In this document: positions 7,377 to 18,673 of the stretch, piece after piece | Numbering within the stretch: the first letter of the stretch is position 1 | Layout of the letters: each line of letters starts with the position of its first letter | Source of the DNA: an uncultured Pelagibacteraceae bacterium | GTDB taxonomy: Bacteria; Pseudomonadota; Alphaproteobacteria; Pelagibacterales; Pelagibacteraceae | Length of the DNA: 40,834 bases | Direction: 5' to 3' | Assembly (NCBI GenBank): GCA_905612235.1 | Contig: CAJQRF010000011.1 | Location: 1 to 40,834, forward strand | The notes under the pieces: model-generated | Database searches by the model: none | What the model saw: only the letters and a program-made list of their open reading frames with translations | What the model was told of the DNA's origin: nothing | Translations under genes and position numbers: made by a program

Positions 7377-8408
7377 ATGAAAAAATTTATTGTAACGGGT
7401 GGCTCAGGGTTTATTGGAAGTAATTTAGTAAAATTCTTACTAAGTAAAAATTACTTTGTGGTTAATATTGATAAATTAAGTTATTCAGCAAACCCTTTCA
7501 ACTTAAAAAAAATAAAAAATAATAAAAAATATAGATTTTTCAAAAAAGATATAAATGATCAGCATCAAATATTTAAAATCATAAATCAGTTTAAACCGAA
7601 TTGTATTTTTAATTTAGCTGCTGAAACACATGTTGATAGATCGATAGACAATCCTAAAGACTTTATTAATAGCAATATCTTGGGTGTATATAATTTACTT
7701 CAAGCTTTAAATAAATATTCAAAGAATAAAAAAAATAAAATAAAGTTAATTCATGTATCTACAGATGAAGTTTATGGGGACATTAAACCTGGTGTTAAAT
7801 CAGATGAAAACTTTCCTTATAACCCTAGCTCACCTTATTCAGCAACAAAAGCTAGTGCAGATTTGTTGATAAAATCATTTGTAAGAACATACAAGCTTCC
7901 AGTCGTAATATCTAATTGTTGCAACAATTATGGGCCAAATCAATTTCCAGAAAAATTAATTCCTAAACTAATTTATAATATTATTAACAACAAGCCTCTG
8001 CAAATATATGGAAATGGTTTAAATTGTAGAGAGTGGATGCATGTTCAAGATCACTGTGAGGCACTTTTAAAAATTTTTTATAAAGGAAAATCTGGAGAAA
8101 GTTATAACGTAGGATCAAATCAAAATATAAGTAATATTAATTTAGTTAAAAAATTATTAAAATTATTAAGAAAAAAACTTATTAAAATTGATAAAAAAAC
8201 AAAAATTGTTTTTGTAAAAGATAGACCTGGACATGACTTTAGATACTCTCTTAATAGTAAAAAAATATTAAAAGAACTAAAATGGGAAGCTAAAATATCT
8301 CTAGATAAAGGATTATCACAAACTTTTAATTGGTATCTTAATAATCAAAATTTTTTTAATAGTGTTCCAAAAAAACTTCATATAAATAGATTAGGTTTAA
8401 AACTATGA
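7377..8408 (+). CDS. rfbB: dTDP-glucose 4,6-dehydratase
   Basis: RfbB/RmlB converts dTDP-glucose to dTDP-4-keto-6-deoxyglucose, step two of dTDP-rhamnose synthesis. The 343 aa protein has GGSGFIGSN at residues 8-16, NLAAETHVDRSIDNP, the active-site STDEVYGD (Thr-Asp-Glu), YSATKA (Tyr-x3-Lys), NNYGPNQFPEKLIP and REWMHVQDH. It is translationally coupled to rfbA by an ATGA overlap. RfbC and RmlD are not adjacent; candidates lie at 31843-33112. Confidence 0.96.
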   Translation: MKKFIVTGGSGFIGSNLVKFLLSKNYFVVNIDKLSYSANPFNLKKIKNNKKYRFFKKDINDQHQIFKIINQFKPNCIFNLAAETHVDRSIDNPKDFINSNILGVYNLLQALNKYSKNKKNKIKLIHVSTDEVYGDIKPGVKSDENFPYNPSSPYSATKASADLLIKSFVRTYKLPVVISNCCNNYGPNQFPEKLIPKLIYNIINNKPLQIYGNGLNCREWMHVQDHCEALLKIFYKGKSGESYNVGSNQNISNINLVKKLLKLLRKKLIKIDKKTKIVFVKDRPGHDFRYSLNSKKILKELKWEAKISLDKGLSQTFNWYLNNQNFFNSVPKKLHINRLGLKL

Positions 8409-9280
8409 TTAAAAAAGGAATTATATTAGCTGGTGGAAATGGTACTCGCATGAGTCCATTGACTAAAGCTGTTAATAAGCAGCTATTGCCGATTTACGAT
8501 AAGCCTTTAATATATTACCCTCTGTCCGTACTTATGCTTTCTGGCATTAAAGATATTTTAATTATTGTAAATAAAGGACAGCTAAACCAATTCAAAAAAA
8601 TTTTACCTAATGGAAACAATTTAGGAATAAAAATTACTTACGCTGAACAAAGTCATCCAAGGGGATTACCTGATGCATTTGTAATTGGTAAAAAATTTAT
8701 TGGTAATAATAATGTTGCTTTAATACTAGGTGATAATTTTTTTTACGGTCAAAGTTTAACAAAAAAATTAAAAAATTGTGTTATGTTAAACCGAGGAGCT
8801 AAAGTAATACTTCATCCGGTAAATAACACTAGCTCATATGGTATAGCAACTATCAATAAAAAAAATAAAATTATAAAAATTGTTGAAAAACCAAAAAAAA
8901 CCTCTTCAAACTTGGCCGTTACAGGCCTTTACTTTTTTGACAAAAATGTTGTTAAATATAGCGAAAGTTTAAAACCATCTCGAAGAAAAGAAATTGAAAT
9001 TGTAGATTTGTTAAATAAATATAAAAGGAGAAATAAGCTATCTGCTGAATTTTTAGGAAGAGGCGGTGCTTGGCTAGATACTGGATCTATTAAAGATTTC
9101 TATGATACATCAGCCTTTGTTTCAGCTTTAGAAAAAAGACAAGGTCTTAAGATTGCATGTTTGGAAGAAATTGCAATTAAAAATAAATGGATTAATAAAA
9201 AAAATATAGTAGAAGCTATTAAATTCTATGGAAAATGTGATTATTCTCTATACTTACTTAAACTTTTAAAACAAAAATAA
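8405..9280 (+). CDS. rfbA: Glucose-1-phosphate thymidylyltransferase
   Basis: RfbA/RmlA makes dTDP-glucose from dTTP and glucose-1-phosphate, the first step of dTDP-rhamnose synthesis. The 291 aa length is normal. GIILAGGNGTRMSPLT is the nucleotidyltransferase signature, followed by KQLLPIYDKPLIYYPLS, then LGDNFFYG (metal-binding Asp), VEKPKK, and GGAWLDTGS. It overlaps rfbB by 4 bp. Its stop lies 2 bp from the convergent stop of the DUF4422 gene, leaving no room for a terminator. Confidence 0.97.
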   Translation: MIKKGIILAGGNGTRMSPLTKAVNKQLLPIYDKPLIYYPLSVLMLSGIKDILIIVNKGQLNQFKKILPNGNNLGIKITYAEQSHPRGLPDAFVIGKKFIGNNNVALILGDNFFYGQSLTKKLKNCVMLNRGAKVILHPVNNTSSYGIATINKKNKIIKIVEKPKKTSSNLAVTGLYFFDKNVVKYSESLKPSRRKEIEIVDLLNKYKRRNKLSAEFLGRGGAWLDTGSIKDFYDTSAFVSALEKRQGLKIACLEEIAIKNKWINKKNIVEAIKFYGKCDYSLYLLKLLKQK

Positions 9281-9282
9281 TT

Positions 9283-10107
9283 TTACATATTAAAATTTTT
9301 TCTAATATCATAGAACAATATAGGTATTTCTTTATATATAGTGTTCTTTTTAAACCAATAAGACATAAATCTTTCTGCTAAAAAACCATAGATTCTAGTT
9401 TGACCATAGCCTTTTAAATTTTCAAAACCAAATATCTGCTCACATTTCTCAAGCCAAGGGAATAAATCTTCATAATAATTTTTTAATTGTTTTTTTGATT
9501 TGCAAATAAACATATTGTGTGGGTTAAAAGAAACTTCATTATTCACAAATTTTCTAAAATCATTTTTATTTGAATCATCTAATAAATCTATCGCCTTATT
9601 TAAGTTATTTTCTCCATGCATCCAATCAAAATGAAAATTAAGATTTCTTTTTGTTTTACTAATTAAACTTGGTTTTTTAACAAAAAGTTTTAATGCAGTT
9701 TTTATAAATTTCATTGTCCTCCATTGATTTACAAACATCTGCTCTCCAAGAATTGACTCGCATGATTCGAGGTCTTTAGGAATGCTCTTTAATGCATGGG
9801 TATTAATTGTATCAATATTTATATTTTCGTTCTTGATATGATGTAAGCTCCAAAATTTTCTATACTGACAAAAACCTACCCATTCATCATCGTCGAGTTT
9901 ATCTAAATAATTTTTCCACAGCCAGTAGTGGAAAGTATATTCCCCATAATTTTTATTTTTTTCAGAAATATTTATTCCTGTATTATCCTGCGTCCAATGA
10001 TTATTAAATTTTTTATCTCCAAGGCCTACAGGTATATAATTAAGATTTTTAATAAAATCGTAGTGACTTGGTTCTAAACTTAAACAAAACATATTTAGGT
10101 TTTTCAT
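9283..10107 (-). CDS. DUF4422-family glycosyltransferase-like protein
   Basis: A 274 aa protein matching the pattern of DUF4422 proteins of capsule and LPS loci. These features are YGEYTFHYWLWKNY (family norm roughly ELTALYWAWKN), WVGFCQYRKFW (roughly VGLCHYRRYF), FNPHNMFICKSKKQLKNYYEDLFPWLEKCE, and the C-terminal RIYGFLAERFMSYWF. Function is inferred as glycosyl transfer; the acceptor and donor are unknown. The start codon overlaps the TGA of the truncated GT61 remnant upstream, so it was once translationally coupled to a gene that is now gone. A working promoter or ribosome site of its own is therefore uncertain. Confidence 0.8.
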   Translation of the reverse strand: MKNLNMFCLSLEPSHYDFIKNLNYIPVGLGDKKFNNHWTQDNTGINISEKNKNYGEYTFHYWLWKNYLDKLDDDEWVGFCQYRKFWSLHHIKNENINIDTINTHALKSIPKDLESCESILGEQMFVNQWRTMKFIKTALKLFVKKPSLISKTKRNLNFHFDWMHGENNLNKAIDLLDDSNKNDFRKFVNNEVSFNPHNMFICKSKKQLKNYYEDLFPWLEKCEQIFGFENLKGYGQTRIYGFLAERFMSYWFKKNTIYKEIPILFYDIRKNFNM

Positions 10108-10212
10108 ATTAAATTAATCCTTATTTCCTCAGATAAAGTTTGAACCGAAACCTGAATACTGCGTTGTTGATTTGGATGACTATATTTTTGTATTTCTTGA
10201 GCATCAGAGATA
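10104..10212 (-). pseudogene. C-terminal remnant of a GT61 (DUF563) glycosyltransferase gene
   Basis: Read on the minus strand, this stretch encodes ISDAQEIQKYSHPNQQRSI followed by about 15 more residues and a TGA. It aligns with the last 34 residues of the intact GT61 protein at 11572-12699 (ISDAKEIKKFDHPNQQGSI and onward). The upstream side stops being open immediately: in-frame TAA and TGA codons occur where the leader repeat at 10213 begins. The TGA overlaps the ATG of the DUF4422 gene in an ATGA, so the intact ancestor was coupled to it. It therefore looks like the stump left when the rest of the gene was replaced. The homology was found by eye and covers the diagnostic HPNQQ block. Confidence 0.8.
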
Positions 10213-10314
10213 AATTTTTATCAGCTTATACGTTAAAAGTTAAACATAAATTGAATTAATTTTACCTATCAATCTGAACTTATTAATATATAAATCAAAT
10301 AAAGAATTAGAAAA
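10213..10314 (+). repeat. Leader repeat copy A (inverted relative to copy B), promoter region of the 3-dehydratase gene
   Basis: About 95 of these bases recur, inverted, at 17513-17613 with five substitutions in the core. Both copies end within a few bases of an ATG, and both read in the direction of that gene. Shared blocks include TTTTATCAGCTTATACGTTAA, AAACATAAATTGAA, TAATTTTACCTATCAAT and ATTAATATATAAATCAAATA. A tandem 7-mer (GTTAAAA, GTTAAAC at 10232-10245) resembles a protein-binding site. TTTACC (10261-10266) and TAATAT (10284-10289), 17 bp apart, could be a sigma-70-type -35/-10 pair. The left edge coincides with the break in the GT61 remnant. Confidence 0.88.
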
Positions 10315-11571
10315 ATGAGTTTAACATCTGAATTAAATAAAGTTTTAGGGACCAAAGAAATAAAAAGAACAAATCATCTTTTTCCACTAAAAGATTCAAC
10401 CTTTAGAAATAAAGATTTAATTGAAGGAATTAAAGTTATTTTGAGTAAAGATGTAACTATGTCAAAAATTACTAAAAAGTTTGAAAAAACATTTAGTAAG
10501 AAAATGAAGATTCCTTATTCATTGATGGTAAACTCTGGATCATCAGCTAATCTTTTGGCATTTCAATGTTTAATTAATCCATATAGAAAAAAAAGATTAA
10601 AAAATGGTGATGAAGTTTTAATACCTTCAATATGTTGGTCAACTTCACTTTGGCCAATCATTCAATGTGGATTAAAACCAGTTTTTGTAGATGTTGATAA
10701 AGAAAATTTTAATATATCTTTAAAAGATCTTGAAAAAAAAATTACAAAAAAGACAAAAGCATTAATGCTCATTCATGTTCTTGGAATATCCACGAACATG
10801 TCAAAACTTTTAAAAATAATAAAAAAAAATAAAATTATTCTAGTAGAAGACACTTGTGAAAGTATAGGAGCTAAGTATAAAAAAAAATCTCTTGGTAGTT
10901 TTGGAGATTTTTCAACTTTTTCTTTTTATTTTTCTCACCAAATTTCATCAGTAGAAGGTGGCATGATATGTTGCCAAAATAAAGAAGATGAAAATATTAT
11001 TAAATCTCTTAGGTCTCATGGGTGGGCAAAAGATTTATCAAATCAGAAGAAAATAGAAAATAAAAATAAAAAAATAAACAAAAATTTTTTGTTTTATAAT
11101 TCTGGCTTTAATTTAAGACCTACTGATATACAGGCAGCAATTGGATTAAGCCAATTTAATTCTTTAGAAAGTTTTATTAAAGTGAGAAGTTTTAATAGAA
11201 ATAAAATTATTAAAAAATTAATTCAGGATAAAAGATGGAGAAAACAAGTTAGTTTTATTAACAACGATTCAAATACTAAACCCTCATGGTTTGGTTTAAC
11301 AATGCTGTTAAATAAGAAATATAAAAATTTGAAAGATAAAATATTTAATAATTTAGATAAATTAGGTATTGAAAATAGACCAATTATTAGTGGAAACTTT
11401 TTAAGACAACCCGCTATAAAAAAATATAATCTTAAACAAAAAAGTATAAATTTTCCTAATTCAAATTTTGTGCATGATCATGGATTGTTTGTGGGTTTAA
11501 AACATAAAGTTTTAAATGATAAAGATGTTCTTAAATTTGCAGATATATTTTTTAAGGCTTTTACAATTTAA
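10315..11571 (+). CDS. PLP-dependent sugar 3-dehydratase, DegT family with His at the Lys position (ColD/RfbH-like)
   Basis: A 418 aa DegT/DnrJ/EryC1-fold protein. NSGSSANLLA (73-82) binds the cofactor phosphate, IPSICWSTSLWPIIQCGLKPVFVDVD is typical of the RfbH/ColD branch, and VEDTCES supplies the cofactor-pairing Asp179. Where aminotransferases of this family have the Schiff-base lysine, this protein has His208 (SFYFSHQISSVEGG). In ColD and RfbH/E1 that Lys-to-His change converts an aminotransferase into a 3-deoxygenating dehydratase that makes 3,6-dideoxyhexose precursors. Gmd at 17696 could supply GDP-4-keto-6-deoxymannose, the ColD substrate. It is preceded by leader repeat A and abuts the convergent GT61 stop (TAA|TTA). 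Confidence 0.85.
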   Translation: MSLTSELNKVLGTKEIKRTNHLFPLKDSTFRNKDLIEGIKVILSKDVTMSKITKKFEKTFSKKMKIPYSLMVNSGSSANLLAFQCLINPYRKKRLKNGDEVLIPSICWSTSLWPIIQCGLKPVFVDVDKENFNISLKDLEKKITKKTKALMLIHVLGISTNMSKLLKIIKKNKIILVEDTCESIGAKYKKKSLGSFGDFSTFSFYFSHQISSVEGGMICCQNKEDENIIKSLRSHGWAKDLSNQKKIENKNKKINKNFLFYNSGFNLRPTDIQAAIGLSQFNSLESFIKVRSFNRNKIIKKLIQDKRWRKQVSFINNDSNTKPSWFGLTMLLNKKYKNLKDKIFNNLDKLGIENRPIISGNFLRQPAIKKYNLKQKSINFPNSNFVHDHGLFVGLKHKVLNDKDVLKFADIFFKAFTI

Positions 11572-12699
11572 TTAATCTTTAAGTGCTTTAGCTAAATTTT
11601 CAACTAATATCTCAATACTACCTTGCTGGTTTGGGTGGTCAAATTTTTTTATTTCTTTGGCATCAGAAATTATTGGGACATAATTTAAATTATTTTTTTT
11701 TGATACATTTTCATACATTGCTCCAGCATTAGTGCTTCTAAGTTCAATTACTTTAGTATTTGGTTTACAAAAAACTAAATTAGCTAATCCAGCACCATGA
11801 AGACCTACAACACATTCTGCGTTGTTAAATATATCTACCTGCTTAGTAAATGCCATTTCATGAAGTTTTACTGTAGTAAAATTATTCTTTAAAAGATAAT
11901 CTTTTATTTCTTCCTCATTTGATACTAATCTTTGTGCTTGATAATTATTAATTGTTTCACCTCTGTCAATATAAATTTTATTTTCTTCTTTTTTATTTCT
12001 TAATATATTGTTGTTTAAAAAAGTTTTTCTTAACCAATAAATAATCCAAGCAGGAATATTGTGAGTATCTTCTGTCGCATTACCGCTTACTACAACTGGA
12101 TGGTCAGTAACTATTAATTTTTTCGCTTTTATATGTCTAAACTTTTTACTAGAAAGTCTTTTGCTATTAGGTATATTTAAAAAATCTAGTGTTTCTTTTT
12201 GAAATTTTTTTATATCATCAGGCAAAAGAAAATAATCTACTTCGCTTAAATTAATAGTTTTGCTACACAATCCTATTCTTGGAAGCACATCTACTAACCA
12301 GTGCCAATAATTATTATTTCCTCCACCACCTGTTAATAAAGATAGTGCTGTGCCATTTAAATTTCTTAATATTCTTGGTGTCCCTTTTTTAAAAACAACA
12401 TTTTCTTTTATTTTTCCATTATAAATTCTTGAATCATTTGTGTATCTTAATTGAAATGATGCTTCTTCTATAATGTTTTTGTCAACCAAGACGGCCGTGT
12501 CTTGTATTCGGTCTGTATACAGCCTTCCATTAGTAATATTATAAACTTTATAAATTAAATCTTTTTCTATTTCTAAGTTATAAATTTTTACACGTTTATC
12601 CTCTTTAATATTTATAGATTTTTTAATTTTTCCATATATTACGAAGAAAAGACTATAAGAAAATATTTTAAATATATTTTGTAAACTTTTTTTTATCAC
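11572..12699 (-). CDS. GT61 (DUF563) family glycosyltransferase
   Basis: A 375 aa protein with an N-terminal hydrophobic segment (about residues 8-24, signal-anchor type). The GGGGNNNYWHWLVDVLPRI block (124-142) and GLHGAGLANLVF with NTKVIELRS are hallmarks of the DUF563/GT61 family. Such proteins transfer xylose, GlcNAc or other sugars; specificity here is unknown. The annotated start is GTG, 13 nt after the CCA end of the upstream tRNA gene on the same strand, with no clear Shine-Dalgarno. It may be translated from a processed tRNA-mRNA transcript, or the true start may lie slightly downstream. A broken paralogue lies at 10104-10212. Confidence 0.83.
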   Translation of the reverse strand: MIKKSLQNIFKIFSYSLFFVIYGKIKKSINIKEDKRVKIYNLEIEKDLIYKVYNITNGRLYTDRIQDTAVLVDKNIIEEASFQLRYTNDSRIYNGKIKENVVFKKGTPRILRNLNGTALSLLTGGGGNNNYWHWLVDVLPRIGLCSKTINLSEVDYFLLPDDIKKFQKETLDFLNIPNSKRLSSKKFRHIKAKKLIVTDHPVVVSGNATEDTHNIPAWIIYWLRKTFLNNNILRNKKEENKIYIDRGETINNYQAQRLVSNEEEIKDYLLKNNFTTVKLHEMAFTKQVDIFNNAECVVGLHGAGLANLVFCKPNTKVIELRSTNAGAMYENVSKKNNLNYVPIISDAKEIKKFDHPNQQGSIEILVENLAKALKD

Positions 12700-12712
12700 G
12701 TTGTGCCAATTA

Positions 12713-12789
12713 TGGTAGCGGAGAGTGGGATCGAACCACCGACCTCAGGCTTATGAGTCCTGCGCTCTAACCAACTGAGCTACCCCGCC
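12713..12789 (-). tRNA. tRNA with CAU anticodon, probably elongator tRNA-Met
   Basis: The minus strand folds into a complete 77-nt cloverleaf including encoded CCA. The acceptor stem is GGCGGGG/CTCCGCT with two G-U pairs. The D arm is GCTC/GAGC, the anticodon loop CTCATAA on a CAGG/CCTG stem, and the T arm GGTGG-TTCGATC-CCACT. Position 31-39 of the anticodon stem is an A-G mismatch. CAU could be initiator Met, elongator Met or lysidine-modified Ile. The paired first position and loop argue against initiator, and the acceptor stem resembles alphaproteobacterial elongator Met. It lies inside the polysaccharide island. Confidence 0.95.
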
Positions 12790-12942
12790 ATTTAATTTAT
12801 ATTGATTTATAATACTATTTATTTTCAATTCAACACAAGTATAGCTAGGAGTTGTATGAAATCAATTTGAATTAAGTTATGAATTTAAAAATTAAGACTA
12901 ATTACTTTGAAATTGGATTAAAAAGATTATAAAGATATTAAT

Positions 12943-13560
12943 ATGGACGAAATCTCATCAATAGTAATTTTAATATCTGGAGGTTTATTATTAAGGTTTT
13001 CACTAACTCTCACAGGTCAAGCGTGGGCCAAATCCCATGCTCAAACAGTAGCTTTTATGATTCTTCCTGTAATAACTTATGTAATAACTAAAACGATTAC
13101 TGGGAATATTGCTTTATCATTAGGTATGATTGGAGCACTATCAATTGTAAGATTTAGACATCCTGTAAAAAGTGCTTTAGAGCTAATTATGTACTTTGAT
13201 TTAATTACAATTGGAATAGCAACAAGTGTAAGAACAAAATGGGCGATTCAACTTATTTTATGCACTATAGCAATTATTGTATTAGTAAAATTTACACAAA
13301 TACTTTTTAAAAAATTTGGAAAATCTTTTTATAACGTTTCTTTTAATGAAGGAATATCCTTAAATTCTATAGAAATTTTTGCTAAGGAAAAAATTGACTT
13401 AATTGAAAGTAGTAATAATTTAGTGAGCTTATTTAAAGATTCATCCCAACAGGAAATTATTTATAGATTAACTTTTGACAATAAAAAAGAACTTAATCAA
13501 TTTAAAAAAAAAATTGAAGAGTCAAAAAGTATTAACAAGATTGATATAAACTTCGTTTAA
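12943..13560 (+). CDS. DUF4956 membrane protein
   Basis: A 205 aa protein with an N-terminal half of about four hydrophobic segments and a soluble C-terminal domain of about 80 residues. The conserved block SLGMIGALSIVRFRHPVK (about 58-75), followed by a membrane segment containing TIGIATSV, is the signature of DUF4956. No biochemical function is established for the family to my knowledge. Its recurrent genomic partners are CotH-like and VTC-domain proteins, and exactly these follow at gaps of 5 and 28 bp, supporting a shared membrane complex. Start ATG at 12943; no strong ribosome site is visible. Confidence 0.88.
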   Translation: MDEISSIVILISGGLLLRFSLTLTGQAWAKSHAQTVAFMILPVITYVITKTITGNIALSLGMIGALSIVRFRHPVKSALELIMYFDLITIGIATSVRTKWAIQLILCTIAIIVLVKFTQILFKKFGKSFYNVSFNEGISLNSIEIFAKEKIDLIESSNNLVSLFKDSSQQEIIYRLTFDNKKELNQFKKKIEESKSINKIDINFV

Positions 13561-13565
13561 AATTA

Positions 13566-15089
13566 ATGAAAGAAAAAATTTTTATTTTTTTTTTTTTATT
13601 TTGTTTTCCGCAAATAGGATCAAGTGATACTTTAAAAAAATACTGTAATGAAACTATTTATCAAATTGAAGATGAGGATATAAATAATCTTAAAATTAAA
13701 AATATTACTATAAATGTTGATAAACATAAAAAATGGACAAAAAATAGTTTAAAAATTTTAATAGGTAATTTCAGATGGATACCAGAAAAATTTAAAAAGA
13801 GATTTAATGCAGACGTTTCAGTTTTATTTGACAATAATTTGTTGTGTAATTTTAGAGGAAGAATAAGAAATAATGGAAATCAAAAAGACCATATCGCATT
13901 AAAAGATAACTCTATTGTTCAAAGCATAGATGTTCATTTACAAAATGGACATATTTATGGAATTAAAAAATTTAAACTTTTAAGAACTAATACTAGAGGC
14001 AATTACAAAGATGAAATATTGCTTACAGAAATATTAAGAGAATTAAATTATATTTCTCCACGCACAAGTATGATTGCAACAAAAATTAATAATGTTGACT
14101 CAAAAATGTTGTTTCAAGAAAAACCTGACGAAGCAATGCTTAAGTTTAACTCGAGAAAAAACGGTCCTATATTTGAAGGTGACGAGAGATTTATGTTTAG
14201 GCTTGCAAAAAATTTACCTGATAATCACTTAAGTAATATGTCTCTAGGAATGCTTCCGTTATTAGAAAAAGGTGTCAATGCAATGCTAGCCAGACAGATT
14301 AATTCAGAATGGAATCAAGAAAATGAAAATAATTTCAATATTGCGCACACCTCATTAACAAAATTAAATATTTCATATCTGCTTTATCTTAATTCATATA
14401 GAAATGAAAAAAATAACTTTGATTATCACAATTACAGTCTAAACAATAATTTATTGGGTTTGAATAATGACAAAAATATTTTAAAGCTTGATATATATAA
14501 TTTATTAGTATTTTCAACAAATGGATGGCATGGTTTAGGTCCTAACAATAGAAAATTTTATTGGAATTCGATAGAAAATTTTTTTGAACCAATAAATTCA
14601 GATACTAATGCAAACATTGATATAAAAACTACTGTATTTCATCTACCATACAGTAAGCAAGTTGATAATGCTTTTAATATTTTGCAAAAATTATTAAATA
14701 ATTTAAATATTAGAAAATTAAAATACAATATTGCTTTTAGGGGAATAAATTTAAGTGAAAAAAAAGTTAAGGAAAAAATTAATAAAATAAAAAGTAATCT
14801 TAATGAACTTAAGAAAATATACCATGAAGCTGACCAGGAAGTTGTTAAATATAATAGAAATAATATAATTGAAGAAAAAATGTGGTATAATTATTATGAA
14901 TATTTATATGAGATTAATCCTAATATTTATGTTGTTAAAAAATCTAAAAAAAATGGCGCATTTAAGAGATGTAAAATAAAACCCTTTGTATGTAATGATT
15001 TTAGCTTTAATAAAGAGCAATTAATTAACTTGGTAGAAGGTAGACTTGTTATAAAAGGAATGGAATATCAGTATTTAGGAGTAATGTAG
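13566..15089 (+). CDS. CotH kinase-like secreted protein
   Basis: A 507 aa protein with a signal-peptide-like N-terminus (KEKIFIFFFLFCFPQIGSSD, partly encoded by a 13-T run). The central region resembles the CotH fold. KKFKLLRTNTRGNYKDEILLTEILRELNYISPRTSMIATKIN is followed by LFQEKP and FEGDERF. Near residues 310-350, DIYNLLVFSTNGWHGLGPNNRKFYW is followed by FEPINSDTNAN. CotH proteins are atypical protein kinases that phosphorylate secreted proteins, but the catalytic residues cannot be assigned safely here. The lysine-rich C-terminal third may be helical. It sits between DUF4956 and VTC-domain genes in one transcription unit; the export signal suggests it acts in the periplasm or at the surface. 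Confidence 0.72.
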   Translation: MKEKIFIFFFLFCFPQIGSSDTLKKYCNETIYQIEDEDINNLKIKNITINVDKHKKWTKNSLKILIGNFRWIPEKFKKRFNADVSVLFDNNLLCNFRGRIRNNGNQKDHIALKDNSIVQSIDVHLQNGHIYGIKKFKLLRTNTRGNYKDEILLTEILRELNYISPRTSMIATKINNVDSKMLFQEKPDEAMLKFNSRKNGPIFEGDERFMFRLAKNLPDNHLSNMSLGMLPLLEKGVNAMLARQINSEWNQENENNFNIAHTSLTKLNISYLLYLNSYRNEKNNFDYHNYSLNNNLLGLNNDKNILKLDIYNLLVFSTNGWHGLGPNNRKFYWNSIENFFEPINSDTNANIDIKTTVFHLPYSKQVDNAFNILQKLLNNLNIRKLKYNIAFRGINLSEKKVKEKINKIKSNLNELKKIYHEADQEVVKYNRNNIIEEKMWYNYYEYLYEINPNIYVVKKSKKNGAFKRCKIKPFVCNDFSFNKEQLINLVEGRLVIKGMEYQYLGVM

Positions 15090-15117
15090 ATAGAATTTAA
15101 GATTTTTAAGCTGAAAT

Positions 15118-15711
15118 ATGACTTTTAGAATAGAACAAAAATTTTCAATTGATAGCTGCAGAATAACTGACTTTAAAAATTATCTTGAAGATAAAAATAT
15201 AAAACAAATTTATCAGCGTAGAAAAATCAAAAGCCTTTATTTTGATAATAATAACTTTGGAATGTATAATGATTCTGTTGAGGGTTTAACTCCCAGGAAA
15301 AAAATACGTCTAAGAACATATCCTAAAACAAAAGATTTAAACCAATATCTCGAAATCAAAATATCAAGCGTAGAAGGAAGATTTAAAACTAGCAATATTA
15401 TCAATACAAATAAGTATAATTTTTTTAAGACAAAAGGTATTTTAGACTTACAATATGGATTATGTAAACCATGCCTTTATGTAGTTTATGATAGGGAATA
15501 TTTTATAATGAATGACGTCAGAATATCTATAGATAATAATATAAGCTACATGCCAAAGTATAAAAATGTTTATCAAAGAGAGTATGGGTCTATAGTTGAG
15601 ATTAAAACTGGAGCAAAAAAGGAGTTAGATGAACTAACTAATGACTTTCCATTTCAAAAAATAAGATATTCCAAATATTGCAATGCTGTAGAAAAAACAC
15701 TTTTAAGATAA
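15118..15711 (+). CDS. VTC-domain protein (polyphosphate polymerase-like)
   Basis: A 197 aa soluble protein with the beta-barrel signature of the VTC/triphosphate-tunnel family. Visible blocks are RIEQKF (Glu6, Lys8), SLYFDNNNFGMYNDSVEG, KKIRLRTYP (Lys62, Arg64, Arg66), YLEIKISSVEGRFK (Glu79, Lys81, Lys90), YDREYF (Arg126), VRISID (Arg135, Asp139), GSIVEIKTG (Glu161, Lys163) and the terminal RYSKYCNAVEK (Ser185, Lys186). In yeast Vtc4 the corresponding basic tunnel residues bind ATP and the growing polyphosphate chain, and the acidic ones bind metal. Catalytic competence is plausible because these residues are retained, but polyphosphate synthesis is inferred. FkbM follows with no spacer. Confidence 0.86.
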   Translation: MTFRIEQKFSIDSCRITDFKNYLEDKNIKQIYQRRKIKSLYFDNNNFGMYNDSVEGLTPRKKIRLRTYPKTKDLNQYLEIKISSVEGRFKTSNIINTNKYNFFKTKGILDLQYGLCKPCLYVVYDREYFIMNDVRISIDNNISYMPKYKNVYQREYGSIVEIKTGAKKELDELTNDFPFQKIRYSKYCNAVEKTLLR

Positions 15712-16593
15712 ATGTATTTTACAAAAAGATATTATAGAATTTTGGAGTCCATCATTAAAAAAACTTTAAATTTTAAAAATCATTCAAATAATGTTGCATT
15801 AGAAAAAACCATTCAAAGTGCGATTTATAATTCAACTAAAAAAGAAAAAATATTATTTTTAAATAAAAATAATAAAAAATATATTGTCCATAACAACGAT
15901 CATATTTCAAAGTTATTATTTATTAATGCCGAATTTGACTTTAAAATTTTAAAGAAAGCATTAAAATATTTAGGAAAAAAACATAAAAGACATACGCTAA
16001 TAAATATTGGTGCTCATATAGGCTCAACCTGTATTGAAGCTATAAAAATGAATTATTTTAAAAACTCAATAGCATTTGAACCAGCAATACGAAATTTTAG
16101 ACTGTTAAAGGCAAATATTTTAATAAACTCTCTTGAGAATAGAATTAAAGTTTTCCATTTAGCTATTAGTAATGAGAAAAAGGTTTTACGTTTAAGTATC
16201 AATAAACTTGCTAATTCTGGAGACAATAGAATTTTAAAAAAAAAAGACAAAATAAAATACGAAAAAGTTAAAAGTGAAAAGCTTGATAATTTTACATCAA
16301 CACTAAATAGAAACAACACTTTAGTGTTTATGGATGTTCAAGGACATGAGCCTTATGTCTTTCTTGGTGCAAAAAAAACAATTAAAAAGAAAATACCAAT
16401 AGTTTTTGAATTTTCACCTTATCTATTCGATAAAAATTGGCTTAAATATTTTAAAGAATTATTTAAAAACTACAATTACTTATACGATTTACAAAATGAT
16501 ACGAAATTAAAATTCACATCTGAAAATCTTTTAAAATTGCATAAAAAATTAAAACTAAAAAATGAAGGTTATACAGATTTATTAATTTTATAA
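15712..16593 (+). CDS. FkbM-family methyltransferase
   Basis: A 293 aa protein with a SAM-binding core beginning near residue 95: LINIGAHIGSTCIEA, then SIAFEPAIRNFRLLKANI, NRIKVFHLAISN, SGDNRI and LVFMDVQGHEPYVFLGA. This order is typical of FkbM methyltransferases, which often O-methylate sugars of glycans or lipids. The target here is unknown. Its ATG directly follows the VTC-gene stop, so it belongs to the DUF4956-CotH-VTC unit or has been attached to it. It ends 4 bp from the convergent GT9-like gene. Confidence 0.87.
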   Translation: MYFTKRYYRILESIIKKTLNFKNHSNNVALEKTIQSAIYNSTKKEKILFLNKNNKKYIVHNNDHISKLLFINAEFDFKILKKALKYLGKKHKRHTLINIGAHIGSTCIEAIKMNYFKNSIAFEPAIRNFRLLKANILINSLENRIKVFHLAISNEKKVLRLSINKLANSGDNRILKKKDKIKYEKVKSEKLDNFTSTLNRNNTLVFMDVQGHEPYVFLGAKKTIKKKIPIVFEFSPYLFDKNWLKYFKELFKNYNYLYDLQNDTKLKFTSENLLKLHKKLKLKNEGYTDLLIL

Positions 16594-16597
16594 TCTT

Positions 16598-17512
16598 TTA
16601 AGATTTGTTTAAGGTGTTAAAAAATTTCTCAAAATGGTTTTGGTGATAAAAATCAAAAGCTTTTGGCCCTACTGGAAAAACAACCGGAAAATCTGGCGAA
16701 GCCTCTAATAATCTTGGTACTTTGAGAGCTTCTGCTACAGAATAAGCAAAACATAAATTTCCTATAAAAAATTTACTAGCTTTAATTATTTGTGCCATTT
16801 CTAAAAAATTTTTACAATCATGAAATTCTAGATGGTGAATTTCTTTTTTTATATTCTCAAACTCCGTCTTTAGTCCTACACATAATATGTTTTTTTCATT
16901 TTTTAAAAAATTATAATTAATATATTCATTTCTGTATCTGGAGCTACGCACTATTACTATTTTGTTTTTAATTGATTCGTGTGGCTGGACAGATAAATAA
17001 GGATTTTCCATATTCGCATGTGTTCCTGTAACGTGATAGTACCACCTTATTGAATGAAATCTTATATTTATTGGTATATCTCTAAATAAATCTAGATTTA
17101 CATCTATTTTTTCCTTTTCGTAAATCTTAACAGTATCTAAGTAATCTTGTGTTTTTAATAAGGGTAAAATTAAATTTATAATTCTCTTATCTAAAAAAAC
17201 TTTTCCAGAAGGGTGATTTTGATACTCAAGATCCATTGGTTTGTCTGCTTGAATATAAAGTTTGCAAGTATGTTTTTTCGATAATTCTTTAATAACTGAC
17301 AAAGAGTACATTAAGTCTCCTAAATGACCAGAGTGCAAAAAGGAAAGTTCGTGATTATTTTCAATATTTCTTTCTATATTAAGAATTTTATTGTAAATTT
17401 TGGCGTTATAAAAATTTAATCGATTGGATAAATTTTTATTGTATTTTAGTTGTTGGTATTTATTTTTGTTAAAAATTTTATACCATAATTTTAACAAAGG
17501 ATTTGCTGACAT
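16598..17512 (-). CDS. GT9-like glycosyltransferase
   Basis: A 304 aa protein with HSGHLGDLMYSLSVIKEL (60-77), which resembles the GD-motif at the start of heptosyltransferases and other GT-B ADP-heptose:LPS transferase-like proteins. The C-terminal half, with FLEMAQIIKASKFFIGNLCFAYSVAEALKVPRLLE, matches the nucleotide-sugar half of that fold, in which a conserved G-x-D/N segment precedes the helix. The usual D-x-G-P-x-H motif is not present in standard form, so it is a divergent member and the donor is unknown. Its ATG directly follows leader repeat B, nearly identical to that in front of the ColD-like gene at the other end of the segment. Confidence 0.65.
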   Translation of the reverse strand: MSANPLLKLWYKIFNKNKYQQLKYNKNLSNRLNFYNAKIYNKILNIERNIENNHELSFLHSGHLGDLMYSLSVIKELSKKHTCKLYIQADKPMDLEYQNHPSGKVFLDKRIINLILPLLKTQDYLDTVKIYEKEKIDVNLDLFRDIPINIRFHSIRWYYHVTGTHANMENPYLSVQPHESIKNKIVIVRSSRYRNEYINYNFLKNEKNILCVGLKTEFENIKKEIHHLEFHDCKNFLEMAQIIKASKFFIGNLCFAYSVAEALKVPRLLEASPDFPVVFPVGPKAFDFYHQNHFEKFFNTLNKS

Positions 17513-17613
17513 TTTTTGTTTCTTTATTTGATTTATATATTAATAAATTAAAATTGATAGGTAAAATTAGTTCAATTTATGTTTAACTGTTAACGTATAA
17601 GCTGATAAAAATT
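17513..17613 (-). repeat. Leader repeat copy B (inverted partner of copy A), promoter region of the GT9-like gene
   Basis: Read on the minus strand this stretch repeats 10213-10314, with five core substitutions, up to the ATG of the gene at 17512. The tandem 7-mer appears as GTTAACA/GTTAAAC, and the putative -35 and -10 elements are retained. Copies A and B face each other across about 7.3 kb, so recombination between them would invert the intervening segment while keeping a leader in front of each end gene. The outer flank (17614 to the gmd start) shows no further similarity to copy A's outer flank. Confidence 0.88.
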
Positions 17614-17695
17614 ATTTCTCCGTTAGGTGTATAATTTATTAGTGCACAAGAGTTAATTTTAATATATATACATTTTAAAAATAAAATATTTAATA

Positions 17696-18673
17696 ATGAC
17701 AAAAGTTGCGCTTATAACAGGGATCACAGGTCAAGATGGTTCGTATCTTGCTGAATTGCTATTATCCAAAGGATATGAGGTTCATGGAATTGTCCGAAGA
17801 GTAGCCTTGGAAGATGAAACACATCGACTTTTTAGAATTAGAAATATATTGGATGATGTAACTCTGCATGCTGCATCTTTAGAAAGTTACGCAAGTTTGT
17901 TTAATATTATTCACAAAATTAAACCTAATGAAGTTTATCATTTAGCTGCGCAAAGTTATGTCTCATACTCATTTGAAGATGAATTTTCTACACTTAATAT
18001 TAATGTTAATGGAACTCATTATTTACTTTCTGCAGTTAAAGAATTTGCTACCAGTAAAGTAAAATTTTATTTTGCTGGATCTTCTGAAATGTTTGGAAAA
18101 GTAAGAGAGTCTCGTCAAAATGAAGATACTCCATTTAACCCAAGATCATCTTATGGAATATCTAAAGTCACAGGATATTTTTTAACAAAAAATTATAGAG
18201 AAGCTTATAACTTACATGCATCAAGCGGAATTCTTTTTAACCACGAATCTCCTCGTAGAGGTTTCGAGTTTGTTACTAGAAAAATTTCTCATGCTGTAGC
18301 AAGAATTAAAAAAGGTTTTCAAAAAAAATTAAAATTAGGTAATATTTATTCTAAGAGGGATTGGGGTCATGCAAAAGATTATGTTGAAGCAATGTGGTTA
18401 ATGCTACAACAAGATAATCCCAATGATTTTGTTATAGGAACTGGTAAAGAATATTCTGTAGAAGAGTTTGCTAAAAAAGCTTTTGCTCATGTTGGATTAA
18501 ATTATAAAGATTATCTTGTTATAGATAAAAAACTAATGAGACCTTCGGATGTTGAAACTTTATTAGCCGATCATAGTAAAGCTAAAAAAATTCTTAATTG
18601 GGAGCCGAAAATTACATTTGATGAATTGGTAACAAGTATGGTTGAGAATGATCTAGAGCAAACTAAAAACTAA
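17696..18673 (+). CDS. gmd: GDP-mannose 4,6-dehydratase
   Basis: Gmd converts GDP-mannose to GDP-4-keto-6-deoxymannose, precursor of GDP-fucose, GDP-rhamnose, perosamine or colitose. The 325 aa protein has ITGITGQDGSYLAELLL (7-23), YHLAAQSYVSYSF, the catalytic Thr/Ser region GSSEMFG, YGISKVTGYF (Tyr-x3-Lys), LFNHESPRRGFEFVTRKI, RDWGHAKDYVEAMW and GTGKEYSVEEF. Where E. coli Gmd has RSSSFNTGR, this protein has RVALEDETHR, marking a distinct subgroup that deserves a specificity check. No Fcl or Rmd lies next to it; the ColD-like enzyme at 10315 could use its product. The stop overlaps the convergent TauE gene by 11 bp. Confidence 0.92.
   Translation: MTKVALITGITGQDGSYLAELLLSKGYEVHGIVRRVALEDETHRLFRIRNILDDVTLHAASLESYASLFNIIHKIKPNEVYHLAAQSYVSYSFEDEFSTLNINVNGTHYLLSAVKEFATSKVKFYFAGSSEMFGKVRESRQNEDTPFNPRSSYGISKVTGYFLTKNYREAYNLHASSGILFNHESPRRGFEFVTRKISHAVARIKKGFQKKLKLGNIYSKRDWGHAKDYVEAMWLMLQQDNPNDFVIGTGKEYSVEEFAKKAFAHVGLNYKDYLVIDKKLMRPSDVETLLADHSKAKKILNWEPKITFDELVTSMVENDLEQTKN

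Follow-up and report, generated by a model that had tools for sequence, protein, structure and literature searches.

Near-identical upstream regions in front of non-homologous genes of one genome have reportedly been described by Matus-Garcia et al. in 2012 (NAR), under the names of promoter propagation and putative mobile promoters. The locus presented here lies in a window of 40,834 nucleotides from an uncultured Pelagibacteraceae bacterium and resembles those cases in having one such region before two non-homologous genes; it differs in that the window has two copies only, with no sign of autonomous mobility, and in that relatives of the window show the source state, with one copy between divergent genes. 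The copying of upstream regions to non-homologous genes is known as promoter propagation or promoter capture, and promoter capture is ascribed to illegitimate recombination or tandem duplication (PMC11111574, which also cites Matus-Garcia et al., and the work it draws on). As in promoter capture, a gene at our locus appears to have acquired, through a non-homologous join, a promoter region that already existed; the differences are that the event is a natural one inside an island, that the donor gene keeps its own copy, and that the promoter is putative. Replaced upstream regions have also been described as horizontal regulatory transfer, or switched intergenic regions (PMC5890482); here too the upstream region of a gene seems to have been replaced by a non-homologous one, but the incoming region can be identified as that of another gene from the same locus.

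Surface-glycan islands of aquatic bacteria, including SAR11, are known to be exchanged, and the studies concerned stress whole-cluster exchange by homologous recombination at the flanks (PMC4033161, PMC2217521). As in replacement flexible genomic islands and HVR2 of SAR11, surface-glycan gene content is swapped between strains at our locus, and no mobile elements were found in the window; by contrast with them, the window shows single-gene cassettes with relics inside the island. The locus is likened to HVR2, not equated with it (the 23S rRNA that would place it was not found in the window's own genome, which is 62% complete). JUMPstart/ops leaders likewise lie upstream of polysaccharide genes, but the leader in the window has neither an ops element nor recurrence nor RNA structure. 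We conclude that the locus is no flipping switch but a clear example of a known route by which bacterial genes gain new control regions; it belongs to the known promoter-duplication kind, with a history that is unusually readable.

Genes of the Glycan Island

The features discussed are listed in Table 1.

Table 1. Features of the glycan island in the window, with positions in the whole stretch.
Feature	Position	Strand	Evidence or remark
GT61 relic	10108..10212	-	Final ~34 codons of a second GT61 gene, in frame
Leader copy A	10213..10314	+	Upstream region of the ColD gene, putatively native, promoter-sized; orthologous single copies before ColD in G011, G104, and G059
ColD (3-dehydratase of 4-keto-6-deoxymannose type)	10315..11571	+	PDB 2gms/3gr9, E 1e-74 to 1e-72; putative moved cassette
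GT61 glycosyltransferase	11572..12699	-	PF04577, E 1e-28; abuts the ColD stop; its 3′ end borders the putative cassette on the other side
tRNA-Met (CAT)	12713..12789	-	Directly before GT61 in the window, G011, G014, and G019; edge of the variable slot
FkbM-type methyltransferase	15712..16593	+	PF05050
“GT9-like” gene	16598..17512	-	Family label unconfirmed; in the G014/G019 clade by tree; now behind leader B
Leader copy B	17512-17613	-	Upstream region of the “GT9” gene, putatively a captured copy; 92% to A; absent before the closest “GT9” relatives (G014, G019)
GDP-mannose 4,6-dehydratase-like (Gmd-like)	17696..18673	+	TIGR01472, 400 bits vs. cut-off 415; fixed right neighbor of leader B

The best solved relative of the first end gene is ColD/WbdK (2gms, E 1e-74), which bears out its ColD-like label; the protein shares 78% identity with the ColD of G011, a genome of the same genus, and retains the histidine at the position of the PLP lysine (SHQ vs. 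SHH in 2gms). The “GT9” label of the other end gene fared worse: sequence searches of Pfam, NCBIfam, and PDB gave it no support, and structure prediction from the single sequence yielded no usable model (pLDDT 33), so we keep the name in quotation marks. The Gmd-like gene is found in the same place in G011 and G014; in the established pathway of colitose-type sugars, GDP-mannose 4,6-dehydratase makes the substrate of ColD, as the product of this neighbor would.

Gene content between tRNA-Met and TauE varies among the genomes, and this region is therefore a tRNA-bounded variable slot. The FkbM-type gene, for example, occupies the interval from VTC to Gmd only in the window among the compared genomes, and has no match in the compared loci. 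The gene between DUF4956 and VTC (13566-15089), for which “CotH-like” is a working name since it has no Pfam match, differs widely among genomes in both length and sequence (507 aa in the window, 787 aa in G011, and 995 aa in G010, at 43-46% identity). Another single-gene difference in the island is the RmlA gene (8405-9280) beside the RmlB-like gene, present in the window, G014, and G019, and missing in G011. Base composition ranges from 24 to 35% G+C and, along with genome size and gene content, points to a SAR11-like, probably marine bacterium. At 8000-18000 it drops to 24-26% (flanks about 30%), which fits an island.

The Inverted Leader Pair

Leaders A and B form a 102-nt inverted repeat with 7197 nt between the copies, which are identical at 94 of 102 positions (92%). 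The preliminary description had noticed near-identical inverted leaders of about 100 bases with about five substitutions in 95 bases, and we count five in the first 94; the mismatches are at positions 25, 44, 62, 64, 67, 95, 96, and 98, leaving exact runs of 24, 18, 17, and 27 nt, and the 27-nt core adjoins the gene. The repeat is genuine and chance is excluded: the search of the own genome gave E = 8e-38, the self-match of the pair reached 150 bits (ten simulated windows gave 45.5 at most), and a 40-nt core of the leader had no match in 100 shuffles. An inversion artefact of assembly or amplification is unlikely, because the copies differ at eight sites and each lies in its own syntenic setting. 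In the self-comparison of the window only two repeats exceed chance, the leader pair and a pair of GT61 3′ ends; a 34-nt match between 17664-17697 and 11319-11352 (inside ColD) was rejected as background (44.6 bits vs. a null maximum of 45.5). No third copy was found in the 835-kb assembly of the own genome (62% complete), bar one short chance-like match.

The similarity between A and B is restricted to non-coding upstream DNA and the downstream proteins are unrelated, as in a duplicated promoter region and as the preliminary description held when it read the repeat as regulatory DNA ahead of unrelated genes and not as a gene duplication. Its statement that the similarity stops at the ATG is right as to this confinement and slightly off as to the exact end, which is about 8 nt before the ATG; the final bases are A-rich, with 3/8 differing. 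The upstream edge of copy A (10212/10213) is the junction with the GT61 3′-end relic. A tandem 7-mer had also been noted in the leaders; GTTAAAA/GTTAAAC is present in copy A, and both copy B (GTTAACA/GTTAAAC) and G011 (CTTGAAA/GTTAAAT) diverge from it, so the 7-mer is not a conserved unit.

Over aligned columns, copies A and B are 88.5% and 86% identical to the G011 leader, and over the full length 83% and 80%. Only 41% of the fourfold sites of ColD are identical between the window and G011, vs. 88.5% for leader A, so the leader region is constrained. Stronger conservation than in other intergenic DNA was ruled out by intergenic controls, since most other short intergenic regions shared by the window and G011 fall at 58-88% (leader A 83%). 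By its size and place, the leader thus appears to be an ordinary conserved upstream region, namely a promoter region. The scan for consensus promoters found 71 sites where 66.7 are expected, so none can be told from the AT-rich background; abutting divergent promoters picked by eye (TTTACC-N17-TAATAT and TTGATA-N17-TTATGT) were dropped, being absent from the scanner sites shown, and shuffled sequences are as rich in sites. The ops element GGCGGTAG has no match within two mismatches in either leader, and the search for RNA structure returned z-scores of 0.46, 0.12, and -0.54, no consensus pairs, and no Rfam match.

The Leader in Related Genomes

A listing of the genes behind the leader in 397 genomes of the family returned ColD orthologs and this one “GT9” gene only. 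Three relatives carry the leader, so it is not private to the window; the duplicated state is found in one genome only. In G011 a single leader (82-88% identical, depending on how this is measured) separates ColD from a divergent “GT9” gene, and G104 and G059, of another genus, have the same “GT9”/ColD pair with a diverged leader; in all three the leader reads into ColD. No nhmmer match to the leader was obtained before the “GT9” genes of G014, G019, and others. Weak matches of 20-55 nt in other family genomes were set aside as AT-rich background, and exact-pattern scans of viral and genome contigs gave nothing, or two unrelated chance matches (Bacteriovorax, Prolixibacteraceae).

The two genes behind the leaders have different affinities. 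ColD of the window groups with those of G011, G104, and G059 (tree support 100/100), whereas its “GT9” groups with G014/G019 (93/96), apart from the “GT9” clade of G011, G104, and G059 (100/99). Since the ColD clade carries the leader and the “GT9” clade to which the window's gene belongs is without it, the leader is ColD's own upstream region, and the polarity runs from ColD to “GT9.” Like the window, G014 has its “GT9” gene facing the Gmd-like gene; in G019, “GT9” follows TauE itself.

Read in the window's orientation, G011 has the order DUF4422 (-), GT61 (-), tRNA-Met, DUF4956 (+), CotH-like (+), VTC (+), ColD (-), leader, “GT9” (+), Gmd-like (+), and TauE (-); the window has DUF4422 (-), leader A, ColD (+), GT61 (-), tRNA-Met, DUF4956 (+), CotH-like (+), VTC (+), FkbM (+), “GT9” (-), leader B, Gmd-like (+), and TauE (-). 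The interior genes GT61, DUF4956, CotH-like, and VTC thus have equal order and strand in the window and in G011 with its one leader, and copy B, flanked by the swapped gene and the Gmd-like gene, sits where G011 has its single leader. Copy B may therefore be the old site and copy A the moved one; because the similarity between the flank of copy B beyond 17613 and the 5′ region in G011 is not significant, it is the gene order that suggests this assignment.

The GT61 Relic and the ColD Cassette

The second repeat of the window, absent from the preliminary description, adjoins leader A and pairs 10094-10211 with 11552-11670 (63.5 bits, 72% identity; simulated maximum 45.5). It matches the relic in Table 1 to the intact GT61 3′ end (11566-11670) at 72-73% over 105-119 nt (E 3e-11). 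On the minus strand, 10108-10212 encodes ISDAQEIQKYSHPNQQRSIQVSVQTLSEEIRINL, which aligns in frame to the GT61 C-terminus ISDAKEIKKFDHPNQQGSIEILVENLAKALKD (score 92 vs. a shuffled mean of 26), and the stop of the relic overlaps the start codon of DUF4422.

DUF4422 comes directly after GT61 in G011, G014, and G019, while in the window the GT61 relic abuts leader A; judging from this comparison, leader A and ColD (10213-11571) form an inserted cassette that has a GT61 3′ end on either side, one truncated and one intact. The arrangement is the footprint of the recombination that brought in the cassette. It would result equally from one-sided homology with a non-homologous join and from a circular molecule integrated by a single crossover.

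Origin of the Two Copies

We favor, with a probability of roughly 0.7, a duplication of the promoter region (promoter capture) during cassette shuffling of the glycan island. The ancestral state would have been a single leader between ColD and a divergent sugar gene, as in the relatives; the unit of leader and ColD would have been placed between GT61 and DUF4422 by recombination, leaving the GT61 3′-end relic (copy A), and in the old slot beside the Gmd-like gene a different “GT9” gene would have come to follow the leader left there (copy B). The join between “GT9” and leader B would fall among the A-rich bases immediately ahead of the start codon; A-rich sequence precedes the ATG in both gene lineages, so a short-homology join is possible. 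Because both genes carry the same upstream region, ColD and “GT9,” about 5 kb apart and read in opposite directions, probably share promoter and regulation, with copy B putatively driving transcription of “GT9.”

The two roles proposed earlier for the leader pair were those of a shared regulatory cassette and of recombination arms. As arms of an invertible segment, flipped in the manner of phase variation or by RecA, the copies would keep a leader before whichever gene ends outside, and 102-nt inverted repeats with exact runs of up to 27 nt do flank the segment. This is nevertheless very improbable: the interior lies the same way round in G011, so the window needs no inversion to explain it, and the compared relatives show one orientation; Pfam scans of about 30 ORFs of the window (a few small ones left out) returned no recombinase gene; a flip would leave the kind of leader before each gene unchanged; and the relic and the trees are explained without one. 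That two glycan-type genes share a regulatory region is plausible, and the idea survives in our preferred reading, but its analogy with JUMPstart/ops does not. Both genes do lie within the glycan island, as a recurring regulatory leader of surface-glycan operons, dispersed over many genes, would lead one to expect; against it, neither the own genome (62% complete) nor the 397 family genomes have a third gene with the leader, which also has no ops, no RNA fold, and no Rfam match, and we give this explanation hardly any credence.

Copy B could also be a passive scar of the replacement of ColD, with no role, “GT9” being transcribed otherwise or not at all. The island does have other scars, such as the GT61 relic and a TauE 3′-end relic before “GT9” in G014. 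We consider this explanation unlikely, however, as copy B is about as conserved as copy A relative to G011 (86% vs. 88.5%), the 27-nt core beside the gene is identical in A and B, and the ORF immediately behind B is intact and has no gene of the same strand close upstream.

ColD and “GT9” as Possible Partners

Under promoter capture, shared regulation of ColD and “GT9” makes sense, since the two occur together in 20 genomes vs. 8.4 expected (p = 2e-5) and lie within about 5 kb of each other in 16/16 genomes that have both on one contig. From this distribution it is reasonable to suppose that both contribute to one glycan and benefit from being controlled alike. Their counterparts in the relatives share one divergent intergenic region. 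A tentative extension, which we hold to be possible though doubtful, is that the duplicated leader acts as a regulatory tag common to ColD and the transferase-like gene, maintained by selection because it preserves their co-regulation now that they lie apart in the island; if so, cassettes of single genes in these islands would carry a common control region along with them or be selected for having one.

The locus offers a resolved multi-genome snapshot of a streamlined bacterium whose glycan-island genes are swapped one at a time, and of the way in which an incoming gene can fall under control that was already in place. Such swaps leave readable footprints, as the relics of GT61 and TauE show, and a family-wide survey of them could reveal how such islands change without mobile elements. 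The TauE relic is in the spacer before “GT9” in G014 (L141, G014:C15, 1739-1919), where 61 nt match the TauE 3′ end of G019 at 75%; G014 has an intact TauE beyond its Gmd-like gene all the same, making this a second 3′-end relic beside a swapped gene.
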